64,000 nt of DNA from Streptomyces sp. SLBN-118 (GTDB lineage: Bacteria; Actinomycetota; Actinomycetes; Streptomycetales; Streptomycetaceae): positions 2,170,001 to 2,234,000 of the forward strand of contig NZ_VFNP01000002.1 in the NCBI RefSeq assembly GCF_006715635.1. Direction: 5' to 3'. The translations under genes were made by a program, and so were the position numbers. The stretch's first letter is position 1. Each line of letters starts with the position of its first letter. The notes beneath the pieces are model-generated. The model saw nothing but the letters and a program-made list of their open reading frames with translations, made no database searches and was not told where the DNA came from. Of the stretch, positions 21,128 to 42,321 are shown piece by piece.

Positions 21128-22165
21128 ATGAGGACCGAGAACCTGTACCTCGCCGGGATCGGCAGCCATCTGCCGCCCCTGTACCCGGCCGAGCGCGCGG
21201 TCGAGGAAGGCCTGTACGCCGAGGAGAGCAGGCAGGCCTCCGGCATGCGTTCAGCGGCCGTCAGCGAGTCGACACCCGCGCCCGACATGGCGATCGACGC
21301 GGCAAGGGCTGCACTGTCCGCATCCGGCCACGGGCCCGAGGACATCGGCATCCTGCTGCACAGCTACACCCACCACCAGGGTCCCGACGGCTGGTCGGCC
21401 GTGCACTACATCCTCAACAACACCGTGGACCGCCCGATCCCCGCCGTGGAGATCAAGCAGGGCTGCCTCGGCATGCTCGCCTCCGTCGAGGTGGCGGCCA
21501 ACCGGCTGATCGCCAACCCCACCCACGACGCCGCCCTGATCACCACGGGCGACAACTACTCAACTCCGGGTGTGGAGCGCTGGCGTGCCTCCGGTCTCTT
21601 TGTGCTCGCCGACGCCGGCTCCGCCGTGGTGCTCTCGCGGCGCAGCGGCTTCGCCGAGCTGCTCGCGGTCGGTTCGCTGTCCGACTCCTCGATGGAGATC
21701 CTCCACCGGGCGGGCGAGGAGCTCTTCCCGCCGGGTGTCACCAGGGGCCGCGGCCTGAACTTCGGCGAGCGGGCCGAGAAGGTCCGTGAGCAGTGGGCGG
21801 CGGGCCAGGCCCCGCCGATCAAGAACTTCGGCGACAAGGTCGCCGAGATCGCCGAGCGCACGCTCAAGGAGGCGGACCTGACCTTCGATCAGGTCGCCAA
21901 GGTCTGCCACGTCGGCTTCGGCCGGCCCGCGCTGGAGGCCATGTTCCTGCTGCCCCTGGACGTCGACGAGGACAAGGCCCTGTGGGAGTACGTCAACACC
22001 ATCGGGCACACGGGCGCGGCCGACCTGTTCCTGGGCCTTGAGCACGTCTGGCGCACCGGCCAGGTCGGGCCCGGCGACCACGTCCTGCTGATCGGCGCGA
22101 GCACCGGCATGGAGGCGGGCGCCGCCGTCGTACGCATCACCGAATCCGCACCCGAAGCCGAGTAG
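21128..22165 (+). CDS. KSIII-like acyltransferase of benzoxazole assembly (NatS/BomK type)
   Basis: A 345-residue thiolase-fold protein of the FabH-like group. The nucleophile Cys is in [10 protein letters not shown] and a His/Asn pair is visible in HVGFG and NTIGHTG. In nataxazole and A33853 biosynthesis such a protein joins the activated 3-hydroxyanthranilate to its acceptor before ring closure (established for those systems; applied here from gene order). AAGGAG precedes the ATG by 8 nt. It is the first gene of a 13-gene operon, and the ligase, carrier and amidohydrolase genes follow immediately. Confidence 0.85.
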
Positions 22166-22174
22166 GAGCTCCTG

Positions 22175-23794: not shown

Positions 23795-23795
23795 C

Positions 23796-24062
23796 GTGGA
23801 CATCACTCCGACCCCTACTGAGCTCGATCTGCGCGCAACGGTCGCGCCGCTGCTGGGCCTTGAGCCCGAGGCGATCGAGCCGGACGCCAACCTGGTGGTT
23901 CTCGGCCTGAGTTCGCTGGAGATCATGCGGCTGGTCAGCCGCTGGCGCAAGAACAAGATCCCGGTCCAGTTCGACGAGCTGGTGGCCGCTCCCACGCTGA
24001 ACGGCTGGCTCGCGCACTTCGCCTCCATCGCGTCCGCGTCGACCGAGCCCGGGGTGGCCTGA
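23796..24062 (+). CDS. Aryl carrier protein with SSL instead of DSL motif
   Basis: An 88-residue carrier protein. The site motif reads LGLSSLEIMRL, so the usual Asp before the modified Ser is itself Ser. The rest, including EIMRLVSRWR, resembles aryl carrier domains of the EntB/DhbB type. GTG start 1 nt after the ligase stop; the stop TGA overlaps the amidohydrolase ATG by one base. Probably holds 3-hydroxyanthranilate for the KSIII-like enzyme. Confidence 0.87.
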   Translation: MDITPTPTELDLRATVAPLLGLEPEAIEPDANLVVLGLSSLEIMRLVSRWRKNKIPVQFDELVAAPTLNGWLAHFASIASASTEPGVA

Positions 24063-25570
24063 TGAACGTCCAGCTGATCACCGGCGGCACCGTCTACACG
24101 GCGGACGCCGAGGAGAGCGTCCATGCCGGCGGCGCGGTGCTGATCGTGGACGGCACGATCGCCGCGGTCGGCAGCGCGCCCGAGGTCGAGGAGTCGGCCG
24201 CCGCCCTCGACCCGGCGCAGAAGGCCGCGATGAAGCGGACCGACGCGGGCCGCATGATGGTGCTGCCCGGCTTCGTCAACGCGCACTGGCACGAGATGTT
24301 CGCCATGCGCTTCCCGATGCGCGGCGCCCTGCGGCCGGTCTCCGACCGCGATGACCAGGTCGCGTTCATGGGCGGCGGCGGCGACATGCACCAGATCTCC
24401 GCCACCTTCGACCGCTTCGACGACCTCATCGACGGCATGACCCCGGACGAGGCACAGGCCATCGCCGAGTACTCGATGTGGACCCAGCTGCGCGGCGGGG
24501 TGACCACGCTCGGCGACATGGGCTCGCTCAACCGCCCGCAGTCGATGGTCGCCGCGGCGCAGCGCCTGGGCATCCGGTTCTCGGCGAGCACCTGGGCGAG
24601 CGACGCGATCTGCCCGCCCGACCAGGACACGTTCGTACGGACCAGGGACGCCGACGGCGTTCTCGCGAACTTCGAGTCGCTGCTCCAGCTGGTCAACAAG
24701 GACACTTCGGGGCGCATCAGGTGCCGTCCGAGCATCGCCTACGTCACGAACATGACCGACGAGCTGGCGCGCGGCATGGCCGACCTGGTCGCCGCGCACG
24801 ACCTCGGGTTCGCGACGCACGTCGGCGCGCTGCGCAACGAGGTCGAGCTGATGCGCGCCTACTACGGCGAGACGGGTGTGCGCCGGCTGGCCGAACTCGG
24901 TCTCGTGGACGAGCGGTTGATGGCCGGGCACTGCGCGTTCCTCGACGAGCAGGAGCAGAAGCTCCTGCTGGCGGCCCGGGCCCACATCAGCCACTCCCCC
25001 GGCAAGTACGGGCCCTCCGGCGAGTCGTCGCTGACCGAGACCGGCGTCGTCCCGGCGCTGCGCAGGGCGGGCCTTGATGTGTCGCTGTCGACGGACGGCT
25101 CGTCGATGCCGAGCGCGGGGATCGCCGAGACGATGCGCGCCGCCTGGCAGATGTACAACGAGATGAGCGCCGACCAGACCGAGGTGCTGCCCAGCGATGC
25201 GCTGGCGATGGGCACCCGGATCGCGGCGAAGGGGCTGCGCTGGGACGACGCGGTGGGCAGCCTGGAGGTCGGCAAGCAGGCCGACCTGGTGCTCGTACGG
25301 GCGGACGACTGGCGCTATCTGCTCAACCCCCGGCCCCTGGAGAGCTTCCTGTGGCTGGCCGGTTCGGCCGATGTGGACACCGTGATCGTCGGCGGCCGGA
25401 CGCTGCTGTCCGGCGGCAAGGGCGTCGAGGTCGACGAGGCGGGTCTGCAGGAGCGTTACCTCGAAGCGCTCGGCGCGTTCACGACGCGCACGCTGCGGGT
25501 GCCGTCGGAGGTGGTCGGGCGGGTGCTGGGCCCTGTCCGTTCGGCCGGACAGGGCCAGGTGACACGGTGA
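24062..25570 (+). CDS. Metal-dependent amidohydrolase, benzoxazole-forming type (NatAM/BomN-like)
   Basis: A 502-residue member of the amidohydrolase superfamily (ATZ/TRZ-like). Metal ligands are visible as HxH in VNAHWHEM, a His in FATHVGA, a His in AGHCAF and Asp in LSTDGSS. In nataxazole and A33853 pathways this family does not hydrolyse a substrate but closes the oxazole ring from the 3-hydroxyanthranilate ester or amide. The same role is inferred here because the KSIII, ligase and carrier genes lie directly upstream in the same order of function. It overlaps its neighbours on both sides. Confidence 0.88.
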
Positions 25571-26343: not shown

Positions 26344-26370
26344 CCGACCGACGAGAAGAGGACACGACCA

Positions 26371-27036
26371 GTGGCGATTGCGCCGATCGACTCCTATCCG
26401 ATGCCGCGGCCCGTCGACCTACCGGCCAACACCGCAACATGGACCGTCGACACCCGCAGGGCCGTGCTGCTCGTGCACGACATGCAGCACTATTTCCTCG
26501 CCCCGTTCGCCGGCGGCAAGCAGCCGCTGACCGATCTGATCGCCCACACCGCCGCGCTGCGCGAAAGCTGCGCGGAGCGCGGCGTCCCGGTGCTCTACAC
26601 GGCCCAGCCGGGCGGAATGACTCCCGAAGAGCGCGGCCTGCTCCAGGACTTCTGGGGACCGGGCATGTCGGCCGCGCCCGAGGACCGGGGCATTCCCGAC
26701 GCCATCGCGCCCGGTGAGCACGACACCGTACTCACCAAGTGGCGGGCCAGCGCCTTCCACAAGACCGGGCTGCTCGACCTGATGTCCGCGCAGGGCCGCG
26801 ACCAGCTGATCATCTGCGGTATCTACGCGCATGTCGGCATCCTGCTCACCGCCTGCGACGCCTTCGCCCACAACATCCAGACCTTTGTGGTGGCCGACGC
26901 GATCGCCGACTTCACGCCCGAGTTCCACCGGATGGCGCTGCAGTACGCGGCGACCCGCTGCGCCATGACCCTTCCGACCGCGACGGTGCTCCAGTCGCTC
27001 GCGACGGTGACCACCGCGTCCGTAGGAGACTCATGA
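26371..27036 (+). CDS. Isochorismatase-family hydrolase, PhzD-like
   Basis: A 221-residue isochorismatase fold. The catalytic Asp is in LVHDMQHYF and Lys in LTKWRASAF. The position that is Cys in ordinary cysteine hydrolases reads GIYAHVGILLTA, without Cys, as in PhzD, which cleaves a vinyl ether. It should convert 2-amino-2-deoxyisochorismate to DHHA and pyruvate. GTG start, 27 nt after the dehydrogenase; its stop overlaps the next gene. Confidence 0.9.
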   Translation: MAIAPIDSYPMPRPVDLPANTATWTVDTRRAVLLVHDMQHYFLAPFAGGKQPLTDLIAHTAALRESCAERGVPVLYTAQPGGMTPEERGLLQDFWGPGMSAAPEDRGIPDAIAPGEHDTVLTKWRASAFHKTGLLDLMSAQGRDQLIICGIYAHVGILLTACDAFAHNIQTFVVADAIADFTPEFHRMALQYAATRCAMTLPTATVLQSLATVTTASVGDS

Positions 27037-28916
27037 TGACCCCCCTCGACGAACTGGCCGCGGGCGGAAGGCCGTTCGCGGTGCTGCACCGTCCCGAGAG
27101 CGGCCGGGAGCAGATGGTCGACCTGCTGGTCGGCGAGTTCACCGAGGTCGCGGGCACCGCCGAGCTACCGGTCCCGGACCTCGGCGAGCCCGGCACGCAC
27201 GAGACGCTGGTCGTGCTGCCCTACCGGGTGATCGGCGAGCGCGGTTTCGACCACCACGACGACGGCGAGCCCGTGCTGGCGATGCCGGTCGACGAGCAGT
27301 CGCTGCTGCCCGTGGACGAGGTGCTCGACCTGGTGCTGCGCTGGCCGATCGAGATGAGCGAGGGCACCTTCGACCTGGACGACCAGGAGTACGGCGATCT
27401 GGTGCGCCGGGTGCTCGCCGAGGAGATCGGCCATGGCGCGGGCGCCAACTTCGTCCTCAAGCGCACCTTCGTCACCGAGATGCCCAACTGGTCGGTGCGT
27501 ACCGCGCTGGCGTTCTGGGGCCGGCTGCTGCGGGCCGAGCCCGGCGCGTACTGGACGTTCCTGATCCACACCGGCGAGCGCACCTTCATCGGCGCCAGCC
27601 CGGAGCGCCATGTGAGCCTCGACGACGGCGTCGCCGTGATGAACCCGATCAGCGGCACCTACCGCTACCCGGCCGGCGGCCCGGCCCCGGACGGCGTGCT
27701 CGACTTCCTCGCCGACAGCAAGGAGACCAACGAGCTGTACATGGTGCTCGACGAGGAACTGAAGATGATGAGCCGGGTCTGCGACGACGTGCGCGTGGTC
27801 GGGCCGCAGCTCAAGGAGATGGCGCACCTCGCCCACACCGAGTACCGCATCGTCGGGCACAGCCGCCGCGACGTACGGGAGATCCTGCACGAGACCCTGC
27901 TCGCGCCCACGGTGACCGGCAGTCCGGTGCAGAGCGCGTGCGAGGTGATCGCCAAGTTCGAGCCGGCCGGGCGCGGTTACTACTCCGGCGTCGCCGCACT
28001 CATCGGCCGGGACGCCGAGGGCCGGCGGCGGATGGACTCCGCGATCATGATCAGGACAGCCGATGTCGACCTGGAGGGACGGATGCGGATCGGCGTCGGG
28101 GCGACGCTGGTGCGCGACTCCGACCCCGCGAAGGAGGCGGCGGAGACCGCGGCGAAGGCGGCCGGGCTGCTCGACGCCCTGGGCCGCGTCGCCGAACACG
28201 CCCGCCCCGCGGGCCTCGACCAACACCCGCAGATCAGAGCCGCACTCACCGACCGCAACAGGGCACTCTCGGACTTCTGGCTCGCACCCGCCGTGCCCAG
28301 GATCGCCACCCGCGGCAAGCTGCTGATCATCGACGCCGAGGACAACTTCACCGCGATGGGAGCCTTGCAGCTGCGGGCGCTGGGCTTCGAGGTGACGGTG
28401 CGCCGCTTCGACGAGCCCTACCGGCTGACCGGCTACGACTGCGTCGTACTCGGTCCGGGTCCGGGTGATCCGCGCGACGAGAACCACCCCAAGATCGCGT
28501 ATCTGCGGGCGGTGACCCGCAGCCTCCTCAACCTTCGTGTGCCGTTCGTGTCGGTGTGCCTGAGCCACCAGATCCTCAGCGGACTGCTCGGCCTGCCCCT
28601 GAACAAGCTGGACTTCCCGAACCAGGGTGTGCGGCGCACGATCGATCTCTTCGGCAGCCGGGAGCCGGTCTACTTCTACAACGCGTTCACCGCGAACTCC
28701 GGCAGCGATCTGCTGGAGAGCCCCCTGTGCCGGGACTTCGTGGAGGTCTCGCGCGATCCGGTCACGGGCGAGGTGCACGGCCTGCGCGGTCCCGGCTTCA
28801 CCTCCGTGCAGTTCCACCCCGAGTCGGTGATGACCCGTCACGGATCAGCAATCCTCGACAGCCTGGTCACCGGTGCTCTCGCGCCGGTGCCTCACAGAGT
28901 GGAGCTCACGGCGTGA
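27033..28916 (+). CDS. 2-amino-2-deoxyisochorismate synthase, PhzE-like (chorismate domain + glutamine amidotransferase)
   Basis: A 627-residue fusion. The N-terminal two thirds is an anthranilate synthase component I fold (NPISGTYRYP, KETNELYMVLDEEL, GYYSGVAALIG). The C-terminal third is a class I glutamine amidotransferase with nucleophile Cys near 509 in SVCLSHQ and His/Glu in VQFHPESV. PhzE enzymes stop at ADIC instead of anthranilate. The PhzD-like gene directly upstream supports that outcome. ATG 27033 has a GGAG site; ATG 27036 is equally possible. Confidence 0.92.
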   Translation: MMTPLDELAAGGRPFAVLHRPESGREQMVDLLVGEFTEVAGTAELPVPDLGEPGTHETLVVLPYRVIGERGFDHHDDGEPVLAMPVDEQSLLPVDEVLDLVLRWPIEMSEGTFDLDDQEYGDLVRRVLAEEIGHGAGANFVLKRTFVTEMPNWSVRTALAFWGRLLRAEPGAYWTFLIHTGERTFIGASPERHVSLDDGVAVMNPISGTYRYPAGGPAPDGVLDFLADSKETNELYMVLDEELKMMSRVCDDVRVVGPQLKEMAHLAHTEYRIVGHSRRDVREILHETLLAPTVTGSPVQSACEVIAKFEPAGRGYYSGVAALIGRDAEGRRRMDSAIMIRTADVDLEGRMRIGVGATLVRDSDPAKEAAETAAKAAGLLDALGRVAEHARPAGLDQHPQIRAALTDRNRALSDFWLAPAVPRIATRGKLLIIDAEDNFTAMGALQLRALGFEVTVRRFDEPYRLTGYDCVVLGPGPGDPRDENHPKIAYLRAVTRSLLNLRVPFVSVCLSHQILSGLLGLPLNKLDFPNQGVRRTIDLFGSREPVYFYNAFTANSGSDLLESPLCRDFVEVSRDPVTGEVHGLRGPGFTSVQFHPESVMTRHGSAILDSLVTGALAPVPHRVELTA

Positions 28917-30265
28917 CCCCCATGGTCGACGTCCCTTCCGCACGCGCCGGGCAGACCTGGCGCTCGCTCCCGGCCAAGCAGCAGCCGCAGTGGCCGGACC
29001 CCGCGGCGCTCGACGCCGCGGTCGACACCCTCGACGGCAGCCTTCCCCTGGTCGTACCGCGCGAATGCGACCTCCTCATGAAGCGGCTGGCCGCCGTCGC
29101 CCAGGGCGAGGCGTTCCTCGTCCAGGGCGGCGACTGCGCCGAATCCCTCGACGCGGTCAACGCCACGTCGATCAGCCGCAGCGCGAGCACCCTGCAGCAA
29201 CTGGCCACGGTCTTCGGGTACATGATGTCGCTGCCGGTGGTCACGGTGGGGCGCATGGCCGGGCAGTACGCCAAGCCGCGCTCGGCGACGACCGAGACCC
29301 GTGACGGCGTCGAGCTGCCGGCGTACCGCGGCGACGCGGTGAACGGGTTCGCGTTCACCGCCGCCGCCCGTACCCCCGACCCCCATCGCATGGTGCGCGT
29401 CTACAACGCGTCCGCCGCCACTCTGAACCTGGTCAGAGCTTTCGGCACGGGCGAGTCGGCCAGCGCCGGACAGGCCCTGGAGAACATCAAGAAGTTCGCC
29501 GTGGACTCGCCGGAGCGGGCCCGCTACGAGAGCCTCATCGCCGAGATCGAAGAGGCCGGGGGCTTCACCGGAACCGACGGCTGGCACACGCCCGGCGAGC
29601 TGTTCATGTCGCACGAAGGACTGCTCCTCGACTACGAAGCCGCACTGACCCGGACCGACTCGGGCACCCAGAAGCCCTACGCCACCTCCGGACATCTGCT
29701 GTGGATCGGCGAGCGCACCCGGCAGCTCGACGGCGCGCACGTGGAGTACTTCTCCGGCATCAGCAACCCGATCGCCGTCAAGATCGGGCCGACCGTCGAG
29801 CAGGACGAACTGCTCCGGCTGATGGACCGGCTCGACCCGAGGCGCGAGCCGGGCAGGCTCACCCTCGTCGCCAGAATGGGCGCCGGAAAGGTACGCGCCG
29901 TACTCCCCGGCCTGGTCGAGCGGGTGACGGCCGAGGGCCTGCCCGTCGCCTGGGTGTCCGACCCCATGCACGGCAACACGATCAGCGCGCCGTGCGGGCG
30001 CAAGACCCGCAGGTTCGACGACATCCTCGACGAACTGTCCGGGTTCTTCGAGGTGGTCGGCGGACTGGGCGCGCACCCCGGCGGCGTGCACCTGGAGCTG
30101 ACCGGCGACGACGTTGCCGAGTGCGTCGGCGGCGGTGCGGGGCTCGGATTCGACGATCTGCCCGCGGGCTACCGGTCGGTCTGCGACCCCCGGCTGAACC
30201 GGGAGCAGTCGCTGGACCTCGCGTTCCGGCTCGCCGACCTCGTCAGTGCCCGGACGTTCGGGTGA
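28913..30265 (+). CDS. Class II (plant-type) DAHP synthase, PhzC-like
   Basis: A 450-residue 3-deoxy-D-arabino-heptulosonate-7-phosphate synthase of the type II family. It is recognised by VQGGDCAES, GRMAGQYAKPRS and the SDPMHGNT segment. It would boost shikimate flux toward chorismate during production, as PhzC does for phenazines. GTG start overlapping the upstream stop by 4 nt; an in-frame ATG follows three codons later. Confidence 0.93.
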   Translation: MTPMVDVPSARAGQTWRSLPAKQQPQWPDPAALDAAVDTLDGSLPLVVPRECDLLMKRLAAVAQGEAFLVQGGDCAESLDAVNATSISRSASTLQQLATVFGYMMSLPVVTVGRMAGQYAKPRSATTETRDGVELPAYRGDAVNGFAFTAAARTPDPHRMVRVYNASAATLNLVRAFGTGESASAGQALENIKKFAVDSPERARYESLIAEIEEAGGFTGTDGWHTPGELFMSHEGLLLDYEAALTRTDSGTQKPYATSGHLLWIGERTRQLDGAHVEYFSGISNPIAVKIGPTVEQDELLRLMDRLDPRREPGRLTLVARMGAGKVRAVLPGLVERVTAEGLPVAWVSDPMHGNTISAPCGRKTRRFDDILDELSGFFEVVGGLGAHPGGVHLELTGDDVAECVGGGAGLGFDDLPAGYRSVCDPRLNREQSLDLAFRLADLVSARTFG

Positions 30266-31020: not shown

Positions 31021-31054
31021 CGCGCTGGTGCAGCGCAGAGATTGGAACCTTGCC

Positions 31055-32383: not shown

Positions 32384-35300
32384 GCCCGCACCACCCCACG
32401 GCAGGTGGGGAACCCGAGTTCTCCGGGCGGATCGCACTGGTCACCGGCGGCGCGGGAAGTGTGGGCCGGGTGATCGTCGAGCGGCTCGCCGAGCGCGGCG
32501 CCACGGTCCTGCTCAACTGCTTCCACTCCTACGACTCCGCCAAGGAACAGGCCCGCGGCCTGGTCGAACGCGGCCTGGACGTCAGGGTGGTGCGCGCCTC
32601 GGTGGCCCGCCCGGCCCAGGTCGAGCGGATGTTCACTCAGATCGGCGAAGAGCACGGCCGCCTCGACATCCTGGTCAACAACGCGGCGGCGGGGTCGTTC
32701 GTCCCCTTCGACGAGATCACCGAGGATCTCCTCGACCGGACCTACGCCACGAACGTCAAGGGCCCCCTGTGGTGCGCCCGCTACGCCCGCCCCCTGCTCG
32801 CCGCGGCGCGGGGGCGCGGTGGCTCGGTGGTCAACGTCTCCTCGCTGGGCGCGGTCACCACACCGGCGAACTACCTGCCGGTGGGCGTGTCGAAGGCGGC
32901 GCTCGAGGCACTGACCCGCTATCTGGCGGCGGAGCTCGCCGAGGACCTGATCCGGGTCAACGCCGCGTCGTGCGGCCTGATCGACAACCCGGTCGGCCAG
33001 ATGTTCCCGGACTTCGCGGGCGTGAGCGCGAACACGGTCGCGGCCACCCCGTTGTCCCGCCTGGGCCGCCCGGAGGACCTGGCCGAGGTCGTGCTCTTCC
33101 TGGCCTCGGAACGCTCGGGCTGGGTCACGGGCCAGACGGTCCTGGCGGACGGCGGCCTGACCCTGCTGAGGTCGGCAATGTCGCCACCACGGGAGGCGGC
33201 GGCTGCCCTCGAGGGTGTTGAGCCCCGGGCGGGGCTCACGGCCGACACCCTGCGGGGCGCCCCGGCAGACCTCGTAATCGACGGTTCGGCAGAGCCTCGG
33301 ATCGAGACCCGGGCCGACCTTGTGGCCGAGGCCTCCCCGGGCGAAGTGACAAAGCCCCCGGCCGGGTTCGTGGCCAAGGCGCGACCGGACGTCGTGACCG
33401 GGACCCGCCTGGGCCGCGAGGCCCAGGCCCCGGCCGGCGCCTCGGCGGACTCAGGGGCACAACCCCTGGCTGGGAACGCGGCCAAGGCCCGGCCGGGCGT
33501 CGCGGCCGAGACCCCGGGCGAGGGGCCGATCAAGACCCGGGCCGACCTCGTGGGCCGCGCCTCGGTCGGGGCGTGGGCCGAGGCGGTGGCGGATGCCGTC
33601 GTCGAACCGGAGGTGCCGCAGGCCGAGTCGGGCGCGCCCCGCGACGACGAGGCGGACGACGATCCCATTGCCGTCGTCGGCATGGGCATGGCCGTCCCCG
33701 GCGCCTCGTCCCCCGAGGAGTTCTGGCGACTCCTCATCGACGGGGCCGAGCTCTTCGTCGACGCTCCCGCCGACCGCTGGGACATCGCTCGCTTCCACGC
33801 CACCGACCGCGGCGCCCCCGACAAGACGTACCAGCGCCGCTCCGGCTTCATCACCGGCTTCCGCCCGCACGAGAAGCTGCGCGCGGAGGGCCTGGCCGAT
33901 GCCGGTCTCGATCACACCGCGCTCTGGCTGCGGCACAGTCTCCACCAGGCGCTCGAAGGGGTACGACGCCACGAGCAGGACCGGTTCTCCTTCTGCGTCG
34001 GCTACACCCCGGACGGCAGCCAGCACTTGGAGGAGGCCTTCGTCCTGCGCTCGGCGCTGGACACCCTGGCCGAGGACGGCGACGACGCCGTCGAAGGACC
34101 GATCGGCGACGCGCTGCGGCGGCGCTTCAGCCGCGGTGACGACCCGTCGGCCTCGTATCTGCCCCACCGCATCGGCCAGGACGCGATGGCGGGCATCCTG
34201 CCGCCCGGCACCCGGGTGCACATGGTGGACACCGCCTGCTCCTCCTCGCTGTACGCGATGGATCTAGGGGTGCGCGATCTGCTCTCCGGGCGCAGCGACA
34301 TCGCCGTGTGCGGCGGTTCGTTCGCGCTGGCGCCCAGCGGCTCCATCCTGTTCGCCAAGCTCAACGGCCTCTCCGCGGGCGGTGCCGTACGCGCCCTGGA
34401 CGCCGGCGCGGACGGTGCGCTGTTCTCCGACGGTGCGGGGCTCGTCGTGCTCAAGCGGCTCTCGCGCGCCCGCGCCGACGGCGACCAGGTCCTCGGCATC
34501 GTCTCGGCGATCGGGCTCTCGGCCGACGGCCGCGGCAAGGCGATCTACGCTCCCGCCCGCGCCGGTCAGGAGCTCGCCATCGAGCGGGCCTTCGACCGCA
34601 GCGGGCTCGGCCCGGACGACGTGGACTGGATCGTCGCGCACGCCACCGGCACCCCGGCGGGCGACGAAGCGGAGTTCACGAGCCTCGGCCAGCGGTACGC
34701 CGGTGCCCGGGGGACCCTGGTGACCTCCAACAAGTCGCTGGTGGGGCACTGCGGTTGGGCCGCCGGCGTGGTGTCGGTCATCCACACCCTGCTCGCCCTG
34801 CGGCACGGCACCATCCCGGCCCAGTACCGCTTCGAGCGGCTGCCGGACGCTCTGGCCGACGAGGCGGACGGGCTCACGGTGCCGGAGCAGCCGGTGCCCT
34901 GGCCCGCCCGTGCGGAGCGTCCCCGGCGCGCCGCGGTCTCCGGCTTCGGTTTCGGCGGCACCAACGCTCACATGATCATCTCCGAGGACCACCGGGGAAC
35001 GCGGTCCGGCCACCCTGCGGCGCTGCCCGCACCGGTCGGCGAGGACCTGGTACTGGTCGGCTGGTCCTCGCACCAGCCCGGCAGCCCCGACTCGGACGCC
35101 GTCGCGGCCTGGGCGGCCGGTCGGGGCACGGATCCCGAGCCCTCGTTCGGGGCGACCTATCCGGTGCCGCCGTTCCAGCAGCTGCGTATGCCACCGCCCA
35201 CCGCGCGCGCCACGGACCGTACGCAGCTGATGATGGTGCGCTGCATGCAGGAACTGGACGAAGCGGTACGCCAGTTGTGCCTGGACCACCACAAGACCAC

Positions 35301-35799
35301 CGGGGTCGTGGTCGGGCACACCGGCGCCACCCGTAACGCCCTGCTCTACAAGACGCGTGCCTATCTCGACGAGATCGGGCATGCGGTGGCCGGTGCGGAC
35401 GAGCGGGCCACGACGGCGAAGTTCCTCCAGCGGCTCGAAGAGCGGGCCACCGGCCTGATCGCCGCGCCGACCGAGGACTCCTTCCCTGGCGAGATGCCCA
35501 ATGTCATCGCCGCCAGACTGTCGAACTACTTCGACCTCCGCGGTCTCAACATCACGGTCGACGCGGGCGAGGCCTCGCTCCTCGAAGCGTTCGACGTGGC
35601 GGGTTCCTACCTCGACTTCAGGGAGATCGATGTCGCCCTGGTGGCCGGAGTCAACGGAACGGCGCTGCCCGGCTGGAACGACACGGCGGGACGGAACGCC
35701 GCGGAAGGCGCCTTCCTGTTCGTCGTGACCCGCAGGTCGCTCGCCGAAGAGGCCGGTCTGCCCGTGCTGGCCGTCATGGAAAGGAGCGTGGGAGCGTGA
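32380..35799 (+). CDS. Trifunctional protein: FabL-type enoyl reductase - KS - CLF-like domain
   Basis: A 1139-residue fusion. Residues about 8-265 are an SDR domain (TGGAGSVG) whose active site reads NYLPVGVSK: Tyr165, six residues, Lys172. This Y-x6-K spacing plus KAALEALTRYL is the hallmark of FabL enoyl-ACP reductases rather than ketoreductases (Y-x3-K). A low-complexity linker with loose repeats (ETRADLV, AKARP) spans about 270-425. KS follows (about 427-868) with Cys620 (DTACSSSLYAM) and VAHATGTPAGD. The last 260 residues are a short KS-like domain reading VDAGEAS, with Glu1064 where the KS Cys would be, so it is probably a chain-length-factor-like partner. The order ER-KS-CLF is not one I recognise from described PUFA synthases, where ER is the separate PfaD. 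Confidence 0.85.
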   Translation: MSPHHPTAGGEPEFSGRIALVTGGAGSVGRVIVERLAERGATVLLNCFHSYDSAKEQARGLVERGLDVRVVRASVARPAQVERMFTQIGEEHGRLDILVNNAAAGSFVPFDEITEDLLDRTYATNVKGPLWCARYARPLLAAARGRGGSVVNVSSLGAVTTPANYLPVGVSKAALEALTRYLAAELAEDLIRVNAASCGLIDNPVGQMFPDFAGVSANTVAATPLSRLGRPEDLAEVVLFLASERSGWVTGQTVLADGGLTLLRSAMSPPREAAAALEGVEPRAGLTADTLRGAPADLVIDGSAEPRIETRADLVAEASPGEVTKPPAGFVAKARPDVVTGTRLGREAQAPAGASADSGAQPLAGNAAKARPGVAAETPGEGPIKTRADLVGRASVGAWAEAVADAVVEPEVPQAESGAPRDDEADDDPIAVVGMGMAVPGASSPEEFWRLLIDGAELFVDAPADRWDIARFHATDRGAPDKTYQRRSGFITGFRPHEKLRAEGLADAGLDHTALWLRHSLHQALEGVRRHEQDRFSFCVGYTPDGSQHLEEAFVLRSALDTLAEDGDDAVEGPIGDALRRRFSRGDDPSASYLPHRIGQDAMAGILPPGTRVHMVDTACSSSLYAMDLGVRDLLSGRSDIAVCGGSFALAPSGSILFAKLNGLSAGGAVRALDAGADGALFSDGAGLVVLKRLSRARADGDQVLGIVSAIGLSADGRGKAIYAPARAGQELAIERAFDRSGLGPDDVDWIVAHATGTPAGDEAEFTSLGQRYAGARGTLVTSNKSLVGHCGWAAGVVSVIHTLLALRHGTIPAQYRFERLPDALADEADGLTVPEQPVPWPARAERPRRAAVSGFGFGGTNAHMIISEDHRGTRSGHPAALPAPVGEDLVLVGWSSHQPGSPDSDAVAAWAAGRGTDPEPSFGATYPVPPFQQLRMPPPTARATDRTQLMMVRCMQELDEAVRQLCLDHHKTTGVVVGHTGATRNALLYKTRAYLDEIGHAVAGADERATTAKFLQRLEERATGLIAAPTEDSFPGEMPNVIAARLSNYFDLRGLNITVDAGEASLLEAFDVAGSYLDFREIDVALVAGVNGTALPGWNDTAGRNAAEGAFLFVVTRRSLAEEAGLPVLAVMERSVGA

Positions 35800-38543
35800 G
35801 CGCCCCGCGTCAGGGTTCCACCACCCTGCTGGGCGCCGAGGGCGCCCGTGAACTGATCGCGTTCCTCACCGCCCCCGCGCCGTCGCGGTCCGCGGTGATC
35901 GAACGCGCCGTACAGGAAGGCGGCCCGGTCCACCGGCTGCGGCTGCGCCACCCGGAGGCTGCTGCGGCGGACGGGGGGCAGGAACCCGAGGCAACGGAAC
36001 CCGAGGCGAAGGAACCCGCTGCCCCTGCCCGCCCCACCGAGCCGCATCTCCTCGACCGGCATGTCCTGCGGCTGGCGCCCGCGCCCCGTCCGGCTCGCGC
36101 CGAGGAGCCGCCGCCGCTCTTCCCGCCCGGCACCGCCGTCCTGACCAATCTCAACTCCGCGCAGCTGCCCGGCGGCAGCACGGTTCTCCAGGACGACGAA
36201 ACGATCGAGGCCGACGTCCTGCGGGCACGCCCCCGCCATGTGCGCGTCCTGGTCGACCTGTCCTCCCAGGACAAGAACACCGGTCCCTCGGAGCGGCTAC
36301 TGCGCCTGCACGACAGCCTCTTCCGTACCGCCAAGGCCTGCACCGAACTCCCCGAGCGGCCCGAGTCGTTCGTCGTGCTCGTCCTCGGCGGCATCGACGC
36401 GGCGCGGGTGCCCCACCCGTGCAGCGGCCTGTTCACCGGCTTCGCGAAGAGCCTCGCGCTCGAATGGCCGGACTCGTCCGTCGTCTCCGTCGTCCACGAG
36501 GCCGCCGACATCGCGTCCGCCGAGGCGGACACCGCGGCCGAGGCAGTGGCCGAACAACTGCTGCCCGTCGTCTCCTTCGCGGGCGGCACCCGGCTGCTGT
36601 GGCAGGCCGCCCCGAACCCGGGCCGGAGCCGGCCCCAGCAGCCCGGACCGGACAGAGAACCGGCCCCCTACACGGTGGTCGCGGCCGGCGGCGGACGCGG
36701 CATCGGCGCCGAACTCCTCGCCGCGCTGGCCCGCCGCGATCGCCCCCGTCTCCATGTCATCGGCTCCACGCGCCTCGACACGGTGAGAGAGGCCGACGTC
36801 CTGCTGACCCGCAAGGACTTCATCCGCACCCGCACGACCGCGGCCGGCGCCGACCGGCTCACCGTGCGGGAGGCGAACGCCGCCTTCGACCGGCTGTCCG
36901 CCGCCCGCGAGGTCAAGGCCAACCTGACGGCTCTGGAGGAGATCTGCGGCGCGGGCAGGGTCACGTACCACGCCTGCGACCTGCGGGACCGTGCCGCGGT
37001 GGACGCGGTCGTCGGGCGGATCAACGACGCGGAGGGTGGCGGCCACGTCGACCTGCTGCTCAATATCGCAGGGACCAACCGCGCCGCATCGGTGGACCAG
37101 AAGAGCCTCGGCGACTTCCGTACGGTCCGCGACCTGAAGGTGCGAACGTACGCCAATCTCAAGGCGGCCTTCGGCGGCGGACAGCCGCGCCGCTGGTGCA
37201 ACTTCGGATCCTTCGTCGGCTTCACAGGACAGACCGGCGAGACCGACTACGGCGCGGCGAACGACTATTTCAACACCGCTGCCCTGTACGGCAGTTCACG
37301 CGGTGCACGGGAGTTCACCATCGGCTGGACGCTGTGGCGGGACGTCGGTCTCGGTGCCACACCGATCATGCGGACGTTCCTCGCGAAGAGCGCGCAGTTC
37401 ACCGCGATGCCCACGGCCGAGGGGATCGACCACTTCCTGCACGAGCTCGACCAGGCCGAGCACACGCCGGTCACCGTCCTGTTCGGTGACCCGGAACGAG
37501 CCGCGATCGAGGCGGCCGTCCCCGGCTATCTGGACTTCTGCCGCACACCGCCGAAGCCGCCGGCGCCCACCGCGCCGGCACCCGCCCGCGCCCTGCCGGA
37601 CTTCTTCGTCGACGACATCACAGGCCGCGGCCCCGACCGGCTCACCGTCGTACGCACCTTCAACCAGGACCGGGACGCCTACCTCCACGAGCACGTGGTC
37701 AACGGTTTCCCGACGCTGCCCGGCACCTTCGTGCCCGAACTCGCTGCGCAGGCCGCCATGCACCTCGTGCCCGGCCGTGTCCCGGTCGTCTTCGAGGACA
37801 TCCGGCTCGACTCCTTCCTGCGCGTCTACCGGCCGGGCCGCGACGAGACCAAACGCATCAAGGCCCACCTCGTCAGCCACGGACCGCACGAGTCCGTCGT
37901 CGACATCGAGGTGACCGGTGACGTGCTGGCACCGGGCGGGCGGCTGCTCGTGAAGGACCGCCGCCACTTCTCCGCCCGCGTACGGCTGCGCGACGAGCAC
38001 GTCGCACCGCCGCGCTGGGACCACTGGGACGACCAGGGCGCCGAGCGCATGGCCGACCCCTACCACGTGCCCAATCCGGCGGTGCTGCTCAGCGGTGTCT
38101 TCGTCTCCACCGCCGACACCCGTACGCATCCCAACGGCCGCCGCGCCCGCTACGTACCCGACCGGCCCGGCATCGAGCGCTGGTTCTCCTCGCTCGTCGT
38201 TCCGTCCGTCCTTCTGGACGGCCTGGCCCGTGTGTCGGTCCTGGACCGCAGCGAGGGCGACTGGACTCCCCTGGCCGTGCCGCGCACCATCCGCCGAATC
38301 GATCTGTACGGCGGCCACACCGACGCCTCACTCGCCTCCGCGGGCACCGGGGTCGAGCTCTACTCCCTGCCCTCCCGTCTCGATCTCGAGAGCGAGGAGG
38401 ACAACAGGGCGCTCGCCGTCACCGCGGCCGGAGACGTCGTACTGCAGATCAAGGACATGACCGGCGTCGTACTCGGCCATGTGAACCAGTCCACCGGCGA
38501 GTACCGCGAGCGCCGGCGCCCCGCCGAGGAGGCAACAGCGTGA
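35796..38543 (+). CDS. Ketoreductase-dehydratase protein of the PUFA-like line (KR-DH)
   Basis: A 915-residue protein. An N-terminal region of about 285 residues looks like the structural half of a PKS KR. The catalytic KR follows with GGGRGIG near 298 and Tyr near 484 in GETDYGAANDYF. A C-terminal hotdog dehydratase region has YLHEHVVNGFPTLPG near 632, resembling the DH of PUFA and enediyne synthases. GTG start in a 4-nt overlap with the ER-KS-CLF gene, so stoichiometric production is likely. It would reduce and dehydrate intermediates held on the AT-ACP protein. Confidence 0.83.
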   Translation: MSAPRQGSTTLLGAEGARELIAFLTAPAPSRSAVIERAVQEGGPVHRLRLRHPEAAAADGGQEPEATEPEAKEPAAPARPTEPHLLDRHVLRLAPAPRPARAEEPPPLFPPGTAVLTNLNSAQLPGGSTVLQDDETIEADVLRARPRHVRVLVDLSSQDKNTGPSERLLRLHDSLFRTAKACTELPERPESFVVLVLGGIDAARVPHPCSGLFTGFAKSLALEWPDSSVVSVVHEAADIASAEADTAAEAVAEQLLPVVSFAGGTRLLWQAAPNPGRSRPQQPGPDREPAPYTVVAAGGGRGIGAELLAALARRDRPRLHVIGSTRLDTVREADVLLTRKDFIRTRTTAAGADRLTVREANAAFDRLSAAREVKANLTALEEICGAGRVTYHACDLRDRAAVDAVVGRINDAEGGGHVDLLLNIAGTNRAASVDQKSLGDFRTVRDLKVRTYANLKAAFGGGQPRRWCNFGSFVGFTGQTGETDYGAANDYFNTAALYGSSRGAREFTIGWTLWRDVGLGATPIMRTFLAKSAQFTAMPTAEGIDHFLHELDQAEHTPVTVLFGDPERAAIEAAVPGYLDFCRTPPKPPAPTAPAPARALPDFFVDDITGRGPDRLTVVRTFNQDRDAYLHEHVVNGFPTLPGTFVPELAAQAAMHLVPGRVPVVFEDIRLDSFLRVYRPGRDETKRIKAHLVSHGPHESVVDIEVTGDVLAPGGRLLVKDRRHFSARVRLRDEHVAPPRWDHWDDQGAERMADPYHVPNPAVLLSGVFVSTADTRTHPNGRRARYVPDRPGIERWFSSLVVPSVLLDGLARVSVLDRSEGDWTPLAVPRTIRRIDLYGGHTDASLASAGTGVELYSLPSRLDLESEEDNRALAVTAAGDVVLQIKDMTGVVLGHVNQSTGEYRERRRPAEEATA

Positions 38544-39922
38544 CCGAGAAAAACGTGACCCAGGGCGTCTGCCCGGTGACGGGTGCCGGGCCCAAGCAGG
38601 TCGAGGGGCCGACGGGCTTCCCGATGTCCTCGCCGGTCATCTCCACCGTGCGGTACGCCGCCGATCCGCCGGGCTTCTCGCTGCGTGCCCAGAAGGACTA
38701 CGGCACGGTCGTCAAGATCCCGATCCTGCCCCACAATCCGACGGTCCAGCTCTCCTCGCCCGAGGCGATCCGGCGGGTCCTCCAGGGCAATGCCGACAAC
38801 TACTCCCGTGGCGCCTACTACGAGGCGTTCGAGCTGTTCATGGGCCGGGGTCTGCTCACCCTGGACGACGGTGACTGGCGCGGCCACCGCAAGGTCGTCA
38901 ACCCCGCCTTCACTCCGAACGCGATCGCCGCGCGCGCGGCGGAGTCGGACGCGGCCGTCGCCGATCTGCTCGACCGCTGGGCCGAACACGCCAGGGCGGG
39001 CCGCTCGTTCGACCTGTTCACCGAGTCGATGAAGCTGACCTGCCGGGTGATGGGCCAAGCCCTGGTCGGCAAGGATCTGTCCCAGGACGGCGGCGAGTTC
39101 GCCGGCGCGGTGTCCGTCGCGCTGGAGGCGATCTTCAAGAACGTCGGCTCGGTGGACAAGGCGATCCCCTCGTTCATCCCGACCCCGTACCGCCGCAAGG
39201 TGGCCAGGGCACGGCGCACGCTGGAGCGCGTCATCGCGGAGGCCGCCCGGAACGTCGACCTCGGTGTGGGCGGCGAAGTGGCCACCCTCATCCGTGAGTC
39301 GGACCTGCCCGAGGACGCCCTCTGGGCCGACCTGGTGACCCTCTTCCTCGCCGGTGTCGAGACCACCGCGCTCTCCTTGTCCTGGACGCTGTACGAAATC
39401 GCCCGTGACCCGGTGGCCCGCGACCGTCTGGAGGAGGAGACGGACCGCGTGCTGGGCGGCCGGATGCCCACCACGAAGGACCTGGCCGACCTCCCGTACG
39501 CCGGCATGGTGGTGGACGAAGGACTGCGGATGCACCCGCCGGTCTGGCAGTTCACGCGCGAGGCGATCGAGGACGACGTGCTCGCCGACCACCACATCCC
39601 GGCGGGCACGCCCCTGCTGGTGTCCGTGTACGGCGCGCACTACAACCCCGAGCAGTGGGAGGACCCCGAGCGGTTCGACCCGGAGAGGTTCCGGCCGGGC
39701 AGTGCGCCCAGCCAGGACCGTTCGGCGTATCTGCCCTTCGGCGGCGGCCGCCGGCAGTGCATCGGCAAGAGGATGGGGCTCGCGCTGCTCCAGCAGGCGG
39801 TCGCCGCGGCATCCGGCCGGTTCCGGCTCACGCTCGCCCGCGAGGACGCCCGCTCCGGCGCGTTCATCACGCTGTTCCCCAAGGGCGGGATCCATGTCAC
39901 GGCCGAGGAGCGGCACCGATGA
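38540..39922 (+). CDS. Cytochrome P450 embedded in the PUFA-like operon
   Basis: A 460-residue P450. Visible are the I-helix AGVETTA, the ExxR motif in DEGLRMHP and the haem loop FGGGRRQCIG with Cys407. The overall wording (CYP102/CYP4-like PERFDPERF region) suits hydroxylation or epoxidation of fatty-acyl-like or polyketide chains, but substrate is inference. It overlaps both neighbours by 4 nt, so it is made together with the two KR-DH proteins. No ferredoxin gene is adjacent. Confidence 0.93.
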   Translation: MTEKNVTQGVCPVTGAGPKQVEGPTGFPMSSPVISTVRYAADPPGFSLRAQKDYGTVVKIPILPHNPTVQLSSPEAIRRVLQGNADNYSRGAYYEAFELFMGRGLLTLDDGDWRGHRKVVNPAFTPNAIAARAAESDAAVADLLDRWAEHARAGRSFDLFTESMKLTCRVMGQALVGKDLSQDGGEFAGAVSVALEAIFKNVGSVDKAIPSFIPTPYRRKVARARRTLERVIAEAARNVDLGVGGEVATLIRESDLPEDALWADLVTLFLAGVETTALSLSWTLYEIARDPVARDRLEEETDRVLGGRMPTTKDLADLPYAGMVVDEGLRMHPPVWQFTREAIEDDVLADHHIPAGTPLLVSVYGAHYNPEQWEDPERFDPERFRPGSAPSQDRSAYLPFGGGRRQCIGKRMGLALLQQAVAAASGRFRLTLAREDARSGAFITLFPKGGIHVTAEERHR

Positions 39923-42321
39923 CGACCACAGATCTGCCGGCCGCCGGCGCGTGGCCCGCGATCCGCCCGCACCTGTCCTCCTTCGACCCGGACGCCTTCG
40001 TCCGGCCGGTCGACCGGTTCGTCTGGGAGCCTGTCCACGTCCCGCACACCGGGGCGCGCCAGGCCCGCCCGCTCGCCGGGCGCAGGCTGCTGCTCGTCGG
40101 TGAGTCGGCGGACCTGGTCGGCGCCGTCGCCGGGGAGCTGGGCGAGCGCGGCGCGCTGGTCGTCCGTTCCGATCCCGATACGCCGCTGAGCGCGGGCGGA
40201 TGGGACGGCATCGTCGACCTCAACGTGATGGGCGAGACCTACGAACTGGGCGACACCACCTGGCGGTCGGCGCTCGCCCGCACCACCGAAGCCGTCCGCG
40301 GCGCCTACCAGCAGTGGGCCGCCGAGCCGCGCTTCGGCCGCCATGTCTATCTCGCCGTGACTCATCTCGGCGGGCACGCGGGTCACGGCGAGGGACAGGT
40401 GCCGCAGCCGCTGGGTGGCATCTGGGCCGGTCTCGCCAAGTGTCTGCCGCGCGAACTGCCCGCCGCAGGCATCGTCGTCGTGGACCTCGACCGTGCGGAT
40501 GCCGCGGCGATCGCCGACGCGGTGGAACGTGAATACGTCAGCCCCGGGCACTTCGAGGTCGGCTACCGGGACGGCCGCCGCCATGTCCTGGTCGGCCGCC
40601 CCGCACCTCTCGGTCCGCCCGGCGAACGGCCTCCCGGTACGGATGACACCGTCCTGATCACCGGCGGCGCGCGTGGCGTCGGCTTCGCGGCGGCCCGCGC
40701 GTTCGCCGAGTCGTTCGGCTGCCGCGTCGTCGTCACGGGCCGGGGCGAGCGTCCCGCGGCGAACGAGGTGAACTCCCTGGACGACGAGGAGTTCGCCGCC
40801 TGGCGACGGCGGCGGCTCTCCGGTGCCCGTACCCCGCAGGACCTCGCCACGGCCCGGAACGAGATCCGCCGCGCGGACGAGGACCGCACCGTCCACCACA
40901 ACCTCACGGGGGCGGCGAAGGACGGGCTGCGCATCGACTATCTGCGCTGCGACTGCACCGACATGGAGCAGGTCGAGCGGGCCTTCGCCGCACTCGGTGA
41001 CGGCCCGCAGTTCGTCGTCCACAACGCCGGCATCGACGATCCGGCCCGTTTCGACCGCAAATCCGCGGACAGCGTGGTGCGTACGGTCGATGTCAAGGTC
41101 ACAGGCTTCGCAAACCTGGTCGCCGCGATCCTGGCCCGGCCCGAACGCCGGGACGCACTGCGCCTGTTGAGCAATGTCGGATCGCTCGCGGGCCGGATGG
41201 GCGGGATGGTCGGCCAGATCGACTACGCGGCGGGCAACGAGGCCCTGGCCCGGCTCGGGTTCTGGGCGCGCGACAACCTCGGCCTGCCCGTGCAGACCCT
41301 GTGCTGGCCGACCTGGGAACGCCTCGGCGTGATCGCCAACTACTCTGCCGCCGTCCGCTATGTCTCCACACTCGACCCGGTGGAGGGCGCACGGCGCTGG
41401 ACCGGGGAACTCGCCTCCGGTCACACCGACGAGGCCGTGTTCCTGGGCAGGATCGGCGCGGTGCTCGCCCCCGGCCAGCTCCGCGGCTTCGGCATGCTCA
41501 CCGGCCACCCCGATCTGCCCCGGCTCCACGCGCTGGACCATCACCTCGGTGAGGTCGAGGAGTACGAGATCTTCCGGTCGCTGCGCACGACCCTGCGCCT
41601 GAACGCCGGTCAGCATCCCTGCCTGTCGGAGGTACGTGTCGGCACGGCCCCGGCGGTCCCCGTCAGTGTCGTGCTGGAGCACGCGGTGGCCGCGGGCGAC
41701 TGGGTGGTGCCGGAGGGCTGGCCCCTGCTGCATCTGCGCGAGTTGCGCGCGCTGAAGGTCAGGCTCGACGGGCTGCGGTTCGGCGGCGGGCATCTCGATC
41801 TGCACCGCGAGGCGCGCGGCGGTTACACCGACGGCGAGTGGTGCGTAGAAGTGACCATTCGCGACCGGGAAGGCGCGGACATCGCGTCGGTGACACTCGT
41901 CTACGGTGCCGAGCCCGCCGCGCGGACCGCGGTGCCGGCCGAGGAGGGAAGCCGCGACCGGCCGACAAGGCACGACGGTTGGCTGAGCTGGGCCGGTGTG
42001 GTCTTCCCGGAGAGCGGGGCCCGGAAGGCAGGCCCGGGGCTGAGGCTCGACGTGACGCCCGTACTGCCCGCCGATCTGTGGACCGTGCCCTTCCCGCCCG
42101 ACCCGACGGTCGCACCCGCGGCCGTCGAGGCCATCGTCCGTGAGACGGACCGCCACACGGCACGGGGCGCGGCCGGGACGCTGACGATCCGCCGGCTGGT
42201 GCTCAGCCCGGGCGCGCAGCGCGTCGAGCGCCTGTACGCGACGGACGGCCTCAGCTGCTGGGCGGGGACCCGCGAGGGGGTTGGGGTGCTTCTCGCCGAG
42301 GGCGTCGGCCTGACGGTGTGA
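39919..42321 (+). CDS. Second ketoreductase-dehydratase-like protein (KR-DH)
   Basis: An 800-residue protein. The first about 240 residues are a KR structural subdomain. The catalytic KR has TGGARGVG near 249 and the PKS-type Tyr near 436 in IDYAAGNEAL, with a Ser in NVGSLAG. The C-terminal third (about 560-790) resembles a PUFA-type hotdog domain with His in QHPCLSEVRVG, more diverged than in the preceding KR-DH protein. It is the last gene of the operon; a terminator hairpin follows 9 nt after its stop. Having two KR-DH proteins suggests division of labour between different chain positions or between the two KS lines. Confidence 0.8.
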   Translation: MTTTDLPAAGAWPAIRPHLSSFDPDAFVRPVDRFVWEPVHVPHTGARQARPLAGRRLLLVGESADLVGAVAGELGERGALVVRSDPDTPLSAGGWDGIVDLNVMGETYELGDTTWRSALARTTEAVRGAYQQWAAEPRFGRHVYLAVTHLGGHAGHGEGQVPQPLGGIWAGLAKCLPRELPAAGIVVVDLDRADAAAIADAVEREYVSPGHFEVGYRDGRRHVLVGRPAPLGPPGERPPGTDDTVLITGGARGVGFAAARAFAESFGCRVVVTGRGERPAANEVNSLDDEEFAAWRRRRLSGARTPQDLATARNEIRRADEDRTVHHNLTGAAKDGLRIDYLRCDCTDMEQVERAFAALGDGPQFVVHNAGIDDPARFDRKSADSVVRTVDVKVTGFANLVAAILARPERRDALRLLSNVGSLAGRMGGMVGQIDYAAGNEALARLGFWARDNLGLPVQTLCWPTWERLGVIANYSAAVRYVSTLDPVEGARRWTGELASGHTDEAVFLGRIGAVLAPGQLRGFGMLTGHPDLPRLHALDHHLGEVEEYEIFRSLRTTLRLNAGQHPCLSEVRVGTAPAVPVSVVLEHAVAAGDWVVPEGWPLLHLRELRALKVRLDGLRFGGGHLDLHREARGGYTDGEWCVEVTIRDREGADIASVTLVYGAEPAARTAVPAEEGSRDRPTRHDGWLSWAGVVFPESGARKAGPGLRLDVTPVLPADLWTVPFPPDPTVAPAAVEAIVRETDRHTARGAAGTLTIRRLVLSPGAQRVERLYATDGLSCWAGTREGVGVLLAEGVGLTV

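Follow-up and report, generated by a model that had tools for sequence, protein, structure and literature searches.

The benzoxazole pathways of nataxazole/AJI9561 (Streptomyces sp. Tu6176; AjiA1) and caboxamycin, and the PfaA-D synthases of polyunsaturated fatty acids (PUFA) and secondary lipids, are the closest described relatives of the gene cluster of Streptomyces sp. SLBN-118 examined here. The cluster lies in a window of 64 kb (G000:C2:2170001-2234000 of the 7.79-Mb genome), in which a plus-strand operon at 21128-42321 forms one arm of a supercluster of about 72 kb that extends past the left edge of the window. On comparison with relatives the supercluster splits into three modules: a PfaA-C-D module (A), a benzoxazole module (B) and a further KS-CLF synthase module (C). 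Judged from the sequences compared, benzoxazole genes are indeed coupled to PUFA-type genes; the coupling is conserved and has come about more than once, and this recurrence suggests that the two types of compound act together or are joined.

Module B shares with nataxazole/AJI9561 the amidohydrolase, the ester-forming PaaK-like ligase, the KASIII, the aryl-AMP ligase and the carrier, as well as the gene set for 3-hydroxyanthranilate and an iterative polyketide synthase (PKS) of the 6-methylsalicylic acid (6-MSA) type, this last by its type rather than by direct comparison with NatPK. It differs in having no clear natAC2 and in lying between two PUFA-type modules, the nataxazole cluster being compared by its benzoxazole genes only. 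The caboxamycin genes cbxA-I comprise the same 3-hydroxyanthranilate and benzoxazole-forming set as module B, but caboxamycin uses a salicylate synthase, and the flanking orfs in the published gene table (PMC5481532) include no PUFA genes. This salicylate-synthase type is fused to module A on a plasmid of strain NBC_00503 and in genome G250. Module A has the KS-AT-4xACP-KR-DH, KS-CLF-2xDH and PfaD proteins of the PfaA-D synthases, but adds acyl-CoA dehydrogenases, an FAD oxidoreductase, a thioester reductase and an aminotransferase, and no separate pfaB-like gene was seen in it. The PKS-NRPS-PUFA hybrids of zeamine, fabclavine, megapolipeptin and chitinimine likewise pair a PUFA-type synthase with another pathway, and the zeamine lipid synthase carries aminotransferase and thioester reductase domains (PMC13291983); here, in contrast, the partner is a benzoxazole pathway, the reductase and aminotransferase stand alone, and the absence of any condensation-domain family from the Pfam matches of the scanned proteins keeps the locus out of that class. 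In Azotobacter vinelandii, PUFA-synthase-like genes lie next to the aromatic head-group genes of phenolic lipids (PMC13291983), but type III PKSs build the ring there, in contrast to the chorismate and 6-MSA-type chemistry predicted in the window.

The original prediction stated that the known benzoxazole clusters (nataxazole, A33853, caboxamycin) are not known to be coupled to PUFA-type synthases, and in the open-licence literature we likewise found no publication on such a combined cluster or on its repeated assembly. A search of the same literature for PUFA synthases with a thioester reductase and an aminotransferase returned zeamine-related papers among its results and none on benzoxazoles. 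Each module is known in kind; it is for their pairing and its recurrence that these searches gave no publication.

Pairing of benzoxazole genes with Pfa synthases

We surveyed 392 genomes of the genus and 394 of the class, each sample including the window's own genome (G000). The amidohydrolase was found in 16 of the 392 genus genomes (E 1e-100), and PfaD in 21 at 74% identity or more and in 63 at E 1e-150. The two genes lie 21-31 kb apart in half of the amidohydrolase genomes (8/16), five of them with amidohydrolases of 79-100% identity (G000, G066, G027, G231, which is S. lichenis and also G393, and G225, which is S. paludis) and three with amidohydrolases of 57-59% identity (G211, G131 and G250). 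Seven of the other eight have no PfaD at E 1e-150, and in G335 it lies 218 kb away; the eight benzoxazole loci that were read, over stretches of 13.5-20 kb, contained no gene of module A. At 74% identity or more, PfaD stands without an adjacent amidohydrolase in 13 genomes, nine of which were read, some on one side of PfaD only (G091, G262, G323 and G033 were left out). Genome G286 has module A alone, neither the amidohydrolase nor module C's KS-CLF being found in it. In the class sample the amidohydrolase occurred in five of 394 genomes, own included, with PfaD adjacent in none of the four others; in G535 the relatives of PfaD (57% and 52%) sit on separate contigs, and the other three have none at E 1e-60. 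The G535 locus, from another family, presents a lone module B in the window's order (iterative PKS, NatL2-type ligase, KASIII, ligase, carrier, amidohydrolase, DHHA dehydrogenase, PhzD, PhzE), and a weak SARP match is the only trace of module A or C in the 40 kb read.

Only one of 72,556 plasmid records carries the amidohydrolase (E 1e-60), namely NZ_CP107856.1 of NBC_00503. Its 18 co-directional genes run from an MFS gene through a salicylate synthase, KASIII, ligase, carrier, amidohydrolase, DHHA dehydrogenase and isochorismatase, then an anthranilate synthase, chorismate mutase, carrier and thioesterase, to PfaA, PfaC (both by tblastn), PfaD, two acyl-CoA dehydrogenases and an FAD oxidoreductase; matching genes in this layout are found in G250. 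After this run the plasmid has a further KS/CLF set, an adenylate-forming enzyme and an acyl-CoA dehydrogenase (L153:39093-49001). The S. globosus plasmid NZ_CP030864.1 carries a module A with a thioesterase and an acyl-CoA carboxylase, 91% identical to that of NBC_00503; the 49 kb read there contained none of the benzoxazole genes. Taken together with the clade of the window, this comparison indicates that module A has two different sites at which a benzoxazole cassette may be carried or lacking.

The amidohydrolases of ten A-linked chromosomal loci fall in three places of the tree, namely the clade of the window, G211 with G131, and G250, which stands beside the benzoxazole-only G164 and G335. 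A single clade of A-linked amidohydrolases was rejected (p-AU 1.4e-45, with four long end branches, G250 among them). As the amidohydrolases do not form one clade, benzoxazole sets of different amidohydrolase lineages were joined to module A repeatedly, at least three times, and the p-AU value and the other layout of NZ_CP107856.1 led us to reject a joining in one lineage only. Module A, and not module C, is the constant partner in every benzoxazole-plus-PUFA locus read: module C's KS-CLF was not found genome-wide in G211, G131 or G250, which keep their benzoxazole genes. The benzoxazole sets joined to module A differ, being of the 6-MSA type, the salicylate type or neither, as do the release genes, which are either a thioester reductase with an aminotransferase or a thioesterase. 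No class III aminotransferase like that of the window was found in the G131 and G211 loci; each has an aminotransferase of the DegT/DnrJ type close to its ABC genes (L118:7090-8376 in G131; L115:1099-3660 in G211).

Gene content of the supercluster

Domain calls for the window's proteins are from Pfam and NCBIfam, and scores against named structures and models are given where they carry the assignment.

1..1165, minus: PfaC-like KS-CLF-DH-DH (module A), C-terminal part left of the window; 2485-aa open frame in the genome
1180..8793, minus: PfaA, KS-AT-4xACP-KR-DH (A); TIGR02813 2430.8 bits, Pfam, four GIDSI carrier motifs
8718..9155, minus: stand-alone carrier protein (A); PF00550; also in loci without B
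9305..11299, minus: SARP/NB-ARC-type regulator (Pfam)
11547..13094, minus: MFS transporter (module B; Pfam); missing in S. ruber
13345..14040, plus: TetR regulator (B; Pfam); missing in S. ruber
14273..19417, minus: iterative type I PKS of the 6-methylsalicylic acid synthase type (B); Pfam, homologue names
19532..20956, minus: ester-forming AMP ligase of NatL2/AjiA1 type (B); 6wuq 829 bits, 6siw 807 bits
21128..22165, plus: KASIII-like acyltransferase (B); 7vyu 690 bits, ChlB3 258 bits
22175..23794, plus: aryl-AMP ligase, NatL1/CbxC type by position and family (B); TIGR02275 642 bits, below the cut-off of 724
23796..24062, plus: carrier protein (B); PF00550
24062..25570, plus: putative benzoxazole-forming amidohydrolase (B); 6sj0 867 bits
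25567..26343, plus: DHHA dehydrogenase (B); TIGR04316 above cut-off
26371..27036, plus: isochorismatase/PhzD-like (B); weak NCBIfam hydrolase matches, 58-80% to counterparts beside benzoxazole genes
27033..28916, plus: PhzE-like chorismate-binding/GATase fusion (B; Pfam)
28913..30265, plus: class II DAHP synthase (B); PF01474 578 bits
30262..31020, plus: phosphopantetheinyl transferase (PPTase) at the B/C junction; Pfam, NCBIfam
31055..32383, plus: AT-ACP (module C; Pfam)
32380..35799, plus: FabL-like SDR fused to KS-CLF (C); Pfam, structure match, motif
35796..38543, plus: KR-DH (C); Pfam, HxxxGxxxxP motif
38540..39922, plus: cytochrome P450 (C; Pfam)
39919..42321, plus: KR with C-terminal hotdog-like part, perhaps a degenerate DH (C); Pfam for KR, structure model
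42413..43015, minus: TetR regulator (Pfam)
43023..45452, plus: MMPL transporter (Pfam)
45681..49213, plus: ABC exporter pair, two genes; missing from the S. ruber locus along with B
49725..52601, plus: LuxR-type regulator (Pfam)
52682..53854, minus: stand-alone thioester reductase (A); 8v1x 290 bits, MxaA 4u7w 254 bits
53906..55150, minus: class III aminotransferase (A); PF00202, putrescine aminotransferase 195 bits
55192..55611, minus: Polyketide_cyc/START-like protein (Pfam)
55763..56791, minus: SARP regulator (Pfam)
56999..58150, plus: FAD-dependent oxidoreductase of the DAO family; last gene of the conserved stretch

Beyond the conserved cluster, a GmrSD C-terminal-like domain protein lies at the right edge of the window (63128-63829).

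Module A, mostly on the minus strand, consists of PfaA, PfaC, PfaD, two acyl-CoA dehydrogenases, the FAD oxidoreductase, the thioester reductase and the aminotransferase. The original prediction made no use of its PfaA, PfaC and PfaD genes, which run on the minus strand over 1-8793 and beyond the left edge; left of PfaA follow PfaC, PfaD, the two acyl-CoA dehydrogenases and an amine-oxidase-like FAD protein, also on the minus strand and from PfaC onward mostly outside the window. PfaA exceeds the TIGR02813 cut-off of 1010 bits more than twofold, the KS-CLF protein has two FabA domains and PfaD has PfaD_N, which places the module among Pfa-type synthases. On the right arm the TetR/MMPL genes, the ABC pair and the LuxR gene precede the thioester reductase and the aminotransferase.

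Module B extends from the MFS gene to the DAHP synthase (11547-30265) and also holds two genes unused in the original prediction, the 6-MSA-synthase-like PKS and the NatL2/AjiA1-like ligase, which are divergent from the operon. The PKS has the domains KS-AT-DH-KR-ACP, and its product is predicted from these and from several homologues named 6-methylsalicylic acid synthase in their sources. Structure-chain matches relate module B to characterised benzoxazole enzymes: the amidohydrolase aligns over residues 1-492 with 6sj0 (867.4 bits), which we take to be NatAM, and the ligase matches AjiA1 (6wuq) and a PaaK-like ligase (6siw, presumably NatL2). Structures of NatAM have been reported, with NatL2 as the PaaK-like ligase (PMC7204872). 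The set for 3-hydroxyanthranilate is present as DAHP synthase, PhzE, PhzD and DHHA dehydrogenase, the PhzD-like protein matching NCBIfam hydrolase models weakly. On account of the ligase, the amidohydrolase and the 6-MSA-type PKS, module B looks like a block of the nataxazole/AJI9561 type.

Module C comprises the AT-ACP, FabL-KS-CLF, KR-DH, P450 and last KR-DH-like genes. Its KS-CLF was predicted as ER-KS-CLF; the KS-CLF stood, and the 'ER' part is better described as a FabL-like SDR (3oic 176.6 bits, named enoyl-ACP reductase [NADPH] in the match table; Y165-x6-K172), 3oic being B. subtilis FabL. The four synthase proteins score 115, 235, 55 and 43 bits with TIGR02813, below its cut-off of 1010, and, with another domain split and an SDR enoyl reductase, differ from Pfa proteins; module C probably works like a reducing KS-CLF synthase and is not classed here as Pfa. 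In the last gene, predicted as KR-DH, the KR was borne out by Pfam and by the fold search, where the matches listed were KR structures and the KR was the only part borne out; a DH was undetected by Pfam, the HxxxGxxxxP motif of the first KR-DH was not seen, and the C-terminal strand and helix pattern of the model (pLDDT 89.6) was read as hotdog-like. Orthologues of this protein, 650-1000 aa long, were read from 35 loci. The module C set (AT-ACP, SDR-KS-CLF, KR-DH, often a P450 and a second KR) is present in many genera, and we know of no product for it. Benzoxazole genes lie within 10 kb in 3 of 79 SDR-KS-CLF loci (L004, L005, L008), and in the other 76 no benzoxazole-block gene passed 38% identity and 45% coverage in flanks of up to 10 kb. 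SDR-KS-CLF relatives were seen in Burkholderia, Paraburkholderia, Paenibacillus, Tumebacillus and many actinobacteria (L013-L082), some as fusions of about 2000 aa.

The operon holds 14 co-directional genes. The original prediction counted 13, its own list also totalling 14, and eight overlaps where the start-codon table gives nine; the plus strand, the gene order, gaps of at most 34 nt and a PPTase as ninth gene all held. With the chosen starts the first nine junctions are +9, +1, -1, -4, +27, -4, -4, -4 and +34, and the last four, from the AT-ACP through the final KR-DH-like gene, are -4 each; the AT-ACP start is uncertain (30986, 31028 or 31055), and 31055 was used for these distances. Scanning 24000-43200 for consensus sites, a test of little power in actinomycete DNA of high GC content, gave no sigma-70-like promoter (0.4 in shuffles) and no terminator-like site (3.7 in shuffles). 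The run may be co-transcribed.

Order and probable module loss in close relatives

The locus was compared by tiling with seven relatives that carry the amidohydrolase or the SDR-KS-CLF; an eighth, Nonomuraea, has module C genes only. The search for this gene order that the original prediction proposed found it in six genomes, namely the window's own, NBC_01481, G066, G027, S. lichenis and PTY087I2, with 58-99% identity in the best segments of the five relatives. The common order of module A is amine oxidase, ACAD2, ACAD1, PfaD, PfaC, PfaA, carrier and SARP; the B block follows, then module C from AT-ACP to KR-DH, TetR/MMPL, the ABC pair, LuxR, thioester reductase, aminotransferase, cyclase, SARP and DAO. 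From the amine-oxidase-like to the DAO-type gene, no enzyme gene was confined to loci with all three modules.

Two relatives have only two of the modules. S. ruber (G394) has A and C, with a SARP gene and PfaA upstream of the AT-ACP, and is without B and the ABC pair; no amidohydrolase was found in its whole genome at E 1e-30. S. paludis has A and B, with C reduced to one AT frame and one KR frame, and module C's KS-CLF was not found in its whole genome at E 1e-100. In both the PPTase adjoins the amine-oxidase-like gene of module A, whereas in the window it stands at the B/C junction. A seven-protein tree groups S. ruber with two B carriers, S. paludis and G027 (100/100), and rejects a clade of nat-type B carriers that excludes S. 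ruber (p-AU 3.4e-51); in a tree of PfaD only the grouping of S. ruber with B carriers is weakly supported. Since S. ruber is sister to two B carriers, the simplest history is that it lost B and the ABC pair, and that S. paludis lost most of C. We considered S. ruber as an ancestral empty site, but its place in the seven-gene tree makes loss simpler. As B and the ABC pair, which lies 15 kb downstream, are gone together in S. ruber, they appear to behave as one unit. The S. ruber genes of modules A and C that were examined are open, ACAD1 included and PfaA excepted. That PfaA is spread over two overlapping frames that separate close to the carrier/KR boundary (L083-L084, G394:C6); the gene may be split, frameshifted or misassembled.

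One product or several

In module B, the homologues of DAHP synthase, PhzE, PhzD and DHHA dehydrogenase would make 3-hydroxyanthranilate from chorismate and the iterative PKS a 6-methylsalicylate-type acid, which the KASIII, two AMP ligases, carrier and amidohydrolase would join into a benzoxazole carboxylic acid, perhaps taking in another 3-hydroxyanthranilate as well; the condensation would follow the ester/hemiorthoamide route that has been reported for NatL2/NatAM (PMC7204872). Module A would make a long polyunsaturated chain by Pfa chemistry and dehydrogenation, released reductively as an aldehyde and then transaminated to an amine. Tambjamine and coelimycin offer parallels for reductive release followed by transamination. 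Module C would be the second PUFA-like synthase, smaller and reducing, with a FabL-type enzyme for enoyl reduction and the P450 for an oxidation. B may have entered between A and C in an ancestor and come to share one tightly packed operon with C, the PPTase shifting to the point where the two meet. Because the modules separate cleanly and no joining enzyme was seen, we lean slightly, on what is close to an even call, towards a three-module supercluster for separate, co-regulated and cooperating products, a bis-benzoxazole and a lipid amine, rather than for one molecule.

The closest rival, tenable if somewhat less probable, is one hybrid product in which the benzoxazole carboxylate of B is joined to the chain of A, whether through an amide bond to the amine that the reductase and aminotransferase would yield or by serving the Pfa synthase as starter unit, and C adds or modifies a further acyl part. 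The repeated joining to module A of different amidohydrolase lineages, the 18-gene co-directional run of the NBC_00503 plasmid, the packing of B and C with a PPTase at their junction, and the presence of the reductase and aminotransferase all speak for it. Against it, no spare ligase or acyltransferase is at hand for the joining, loci with a thioesterase instead of the reductase and aminotransferase also carry B, the B sets differ, S. ruber and S. paludis each keep the rest without one module, and the nataxazole cluster by itself is said to yield AJI9561 on heterologous expression (PMC5445379). Several observations weigh against separate products. Repeated B-A joining and B-C packing would be expected of a hybrid pathway too, and separability does not exclude a decorated core molecule. 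Among the loci read, the ABC pair and TetR1 occur only where A and B do (the clade of the window, S. paludis, G211 and G131) and are not within 20 kb of the lone B in G535, a distribution that fits a joint A and B product. In S. ruber the loss of B is a parsimony argument, and the two-frame PfaA may mean that module A no longer works fully there, an outcome to be expected if it depended on B. Finally, module B has no clear counterpart of natAC2 and no second carrier, the carrier at 8718-9155 also occurring in loci without B, whereas natAC2 is reported in nataxazole, with natL1/natAC1 assigned to the 6-MSA to 3-hydroxyanthranilate step and natL2/natAC2 to the joining of two 3-hydroxyanthranilates (PMC5481532, PMC5445379). 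In its fullest form, which we judge somewhat less likely than not, the joint product would be a new class of compound: a benzoxazole carboxylic acid would be joined to a Pfa-made polyunsaturated long-chain amine (an acid in related loci), a pairing assembled at least three times from different benzoxazole cassettes and elaborated in the clade of the window by the FabL-KS-CLF synthase of C.

The original prediction of a benzoxazole pathway coupled to PUFA-type genes is upheld by the order kept in six genomes and by more than one joining to Pfa synthases, but its argument from tight packing to one product of the two operon halves is not supported, as S. ruber keeps the C half without an amidohydrolase genome-wide, and the KS-CLF is missing from the whole genomes of S. 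paludis, G211, G131 and G250, all of which have benzoxazole genes. A product to which B and C alone contribute, A having no part in it, would agree with the tightly packed B-C run of the six three-module genomes, but B occurs with A in those four genomes lacking the KS-CLF, 76 of the 79 C loci, that of S. ruber among them, are without B in the flanks searched, and no locus read has B and an intact C without A; we regard it as very improbable, and reject the B-C operon as a functional unit because the modules separate in S. ruber and S. paludis. Equally hard to sustain is a chance neighbourhood of crowded clusters with no functional link. Secondary-metabolite genes do crowd together and move between strains, and A, B and C each occur alone, but the order is kept at 58-99% identity in five relatives, and a rough estimate puts the chance of three of six lineages lying within 50 kb at 5.6e-9, rising to 5.5e-6 when crowding is allowed for tenfold, the six-lineage grouping having been made after the tree was known.

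Strains with A, A+C, A+B and A+B+C, including NBC_01481, PTY087I2, NBC_00503, S. lichenis, S. paludis and S. ruber, form a natural comparison set, and their extracts could show whether benzoxazoles and polyunsaturated lipids are conjugated or co-delivered. This comparison would help to assign a function to Pfa-type clusters of Streptomyces. The locus of NBC_01481, the nearest relative of that in the window, has about 17 kb extra between TetR1 and the iterative PKS, inside an otherwise syntenic benzoxazole block (G395:C9; L089-L091).

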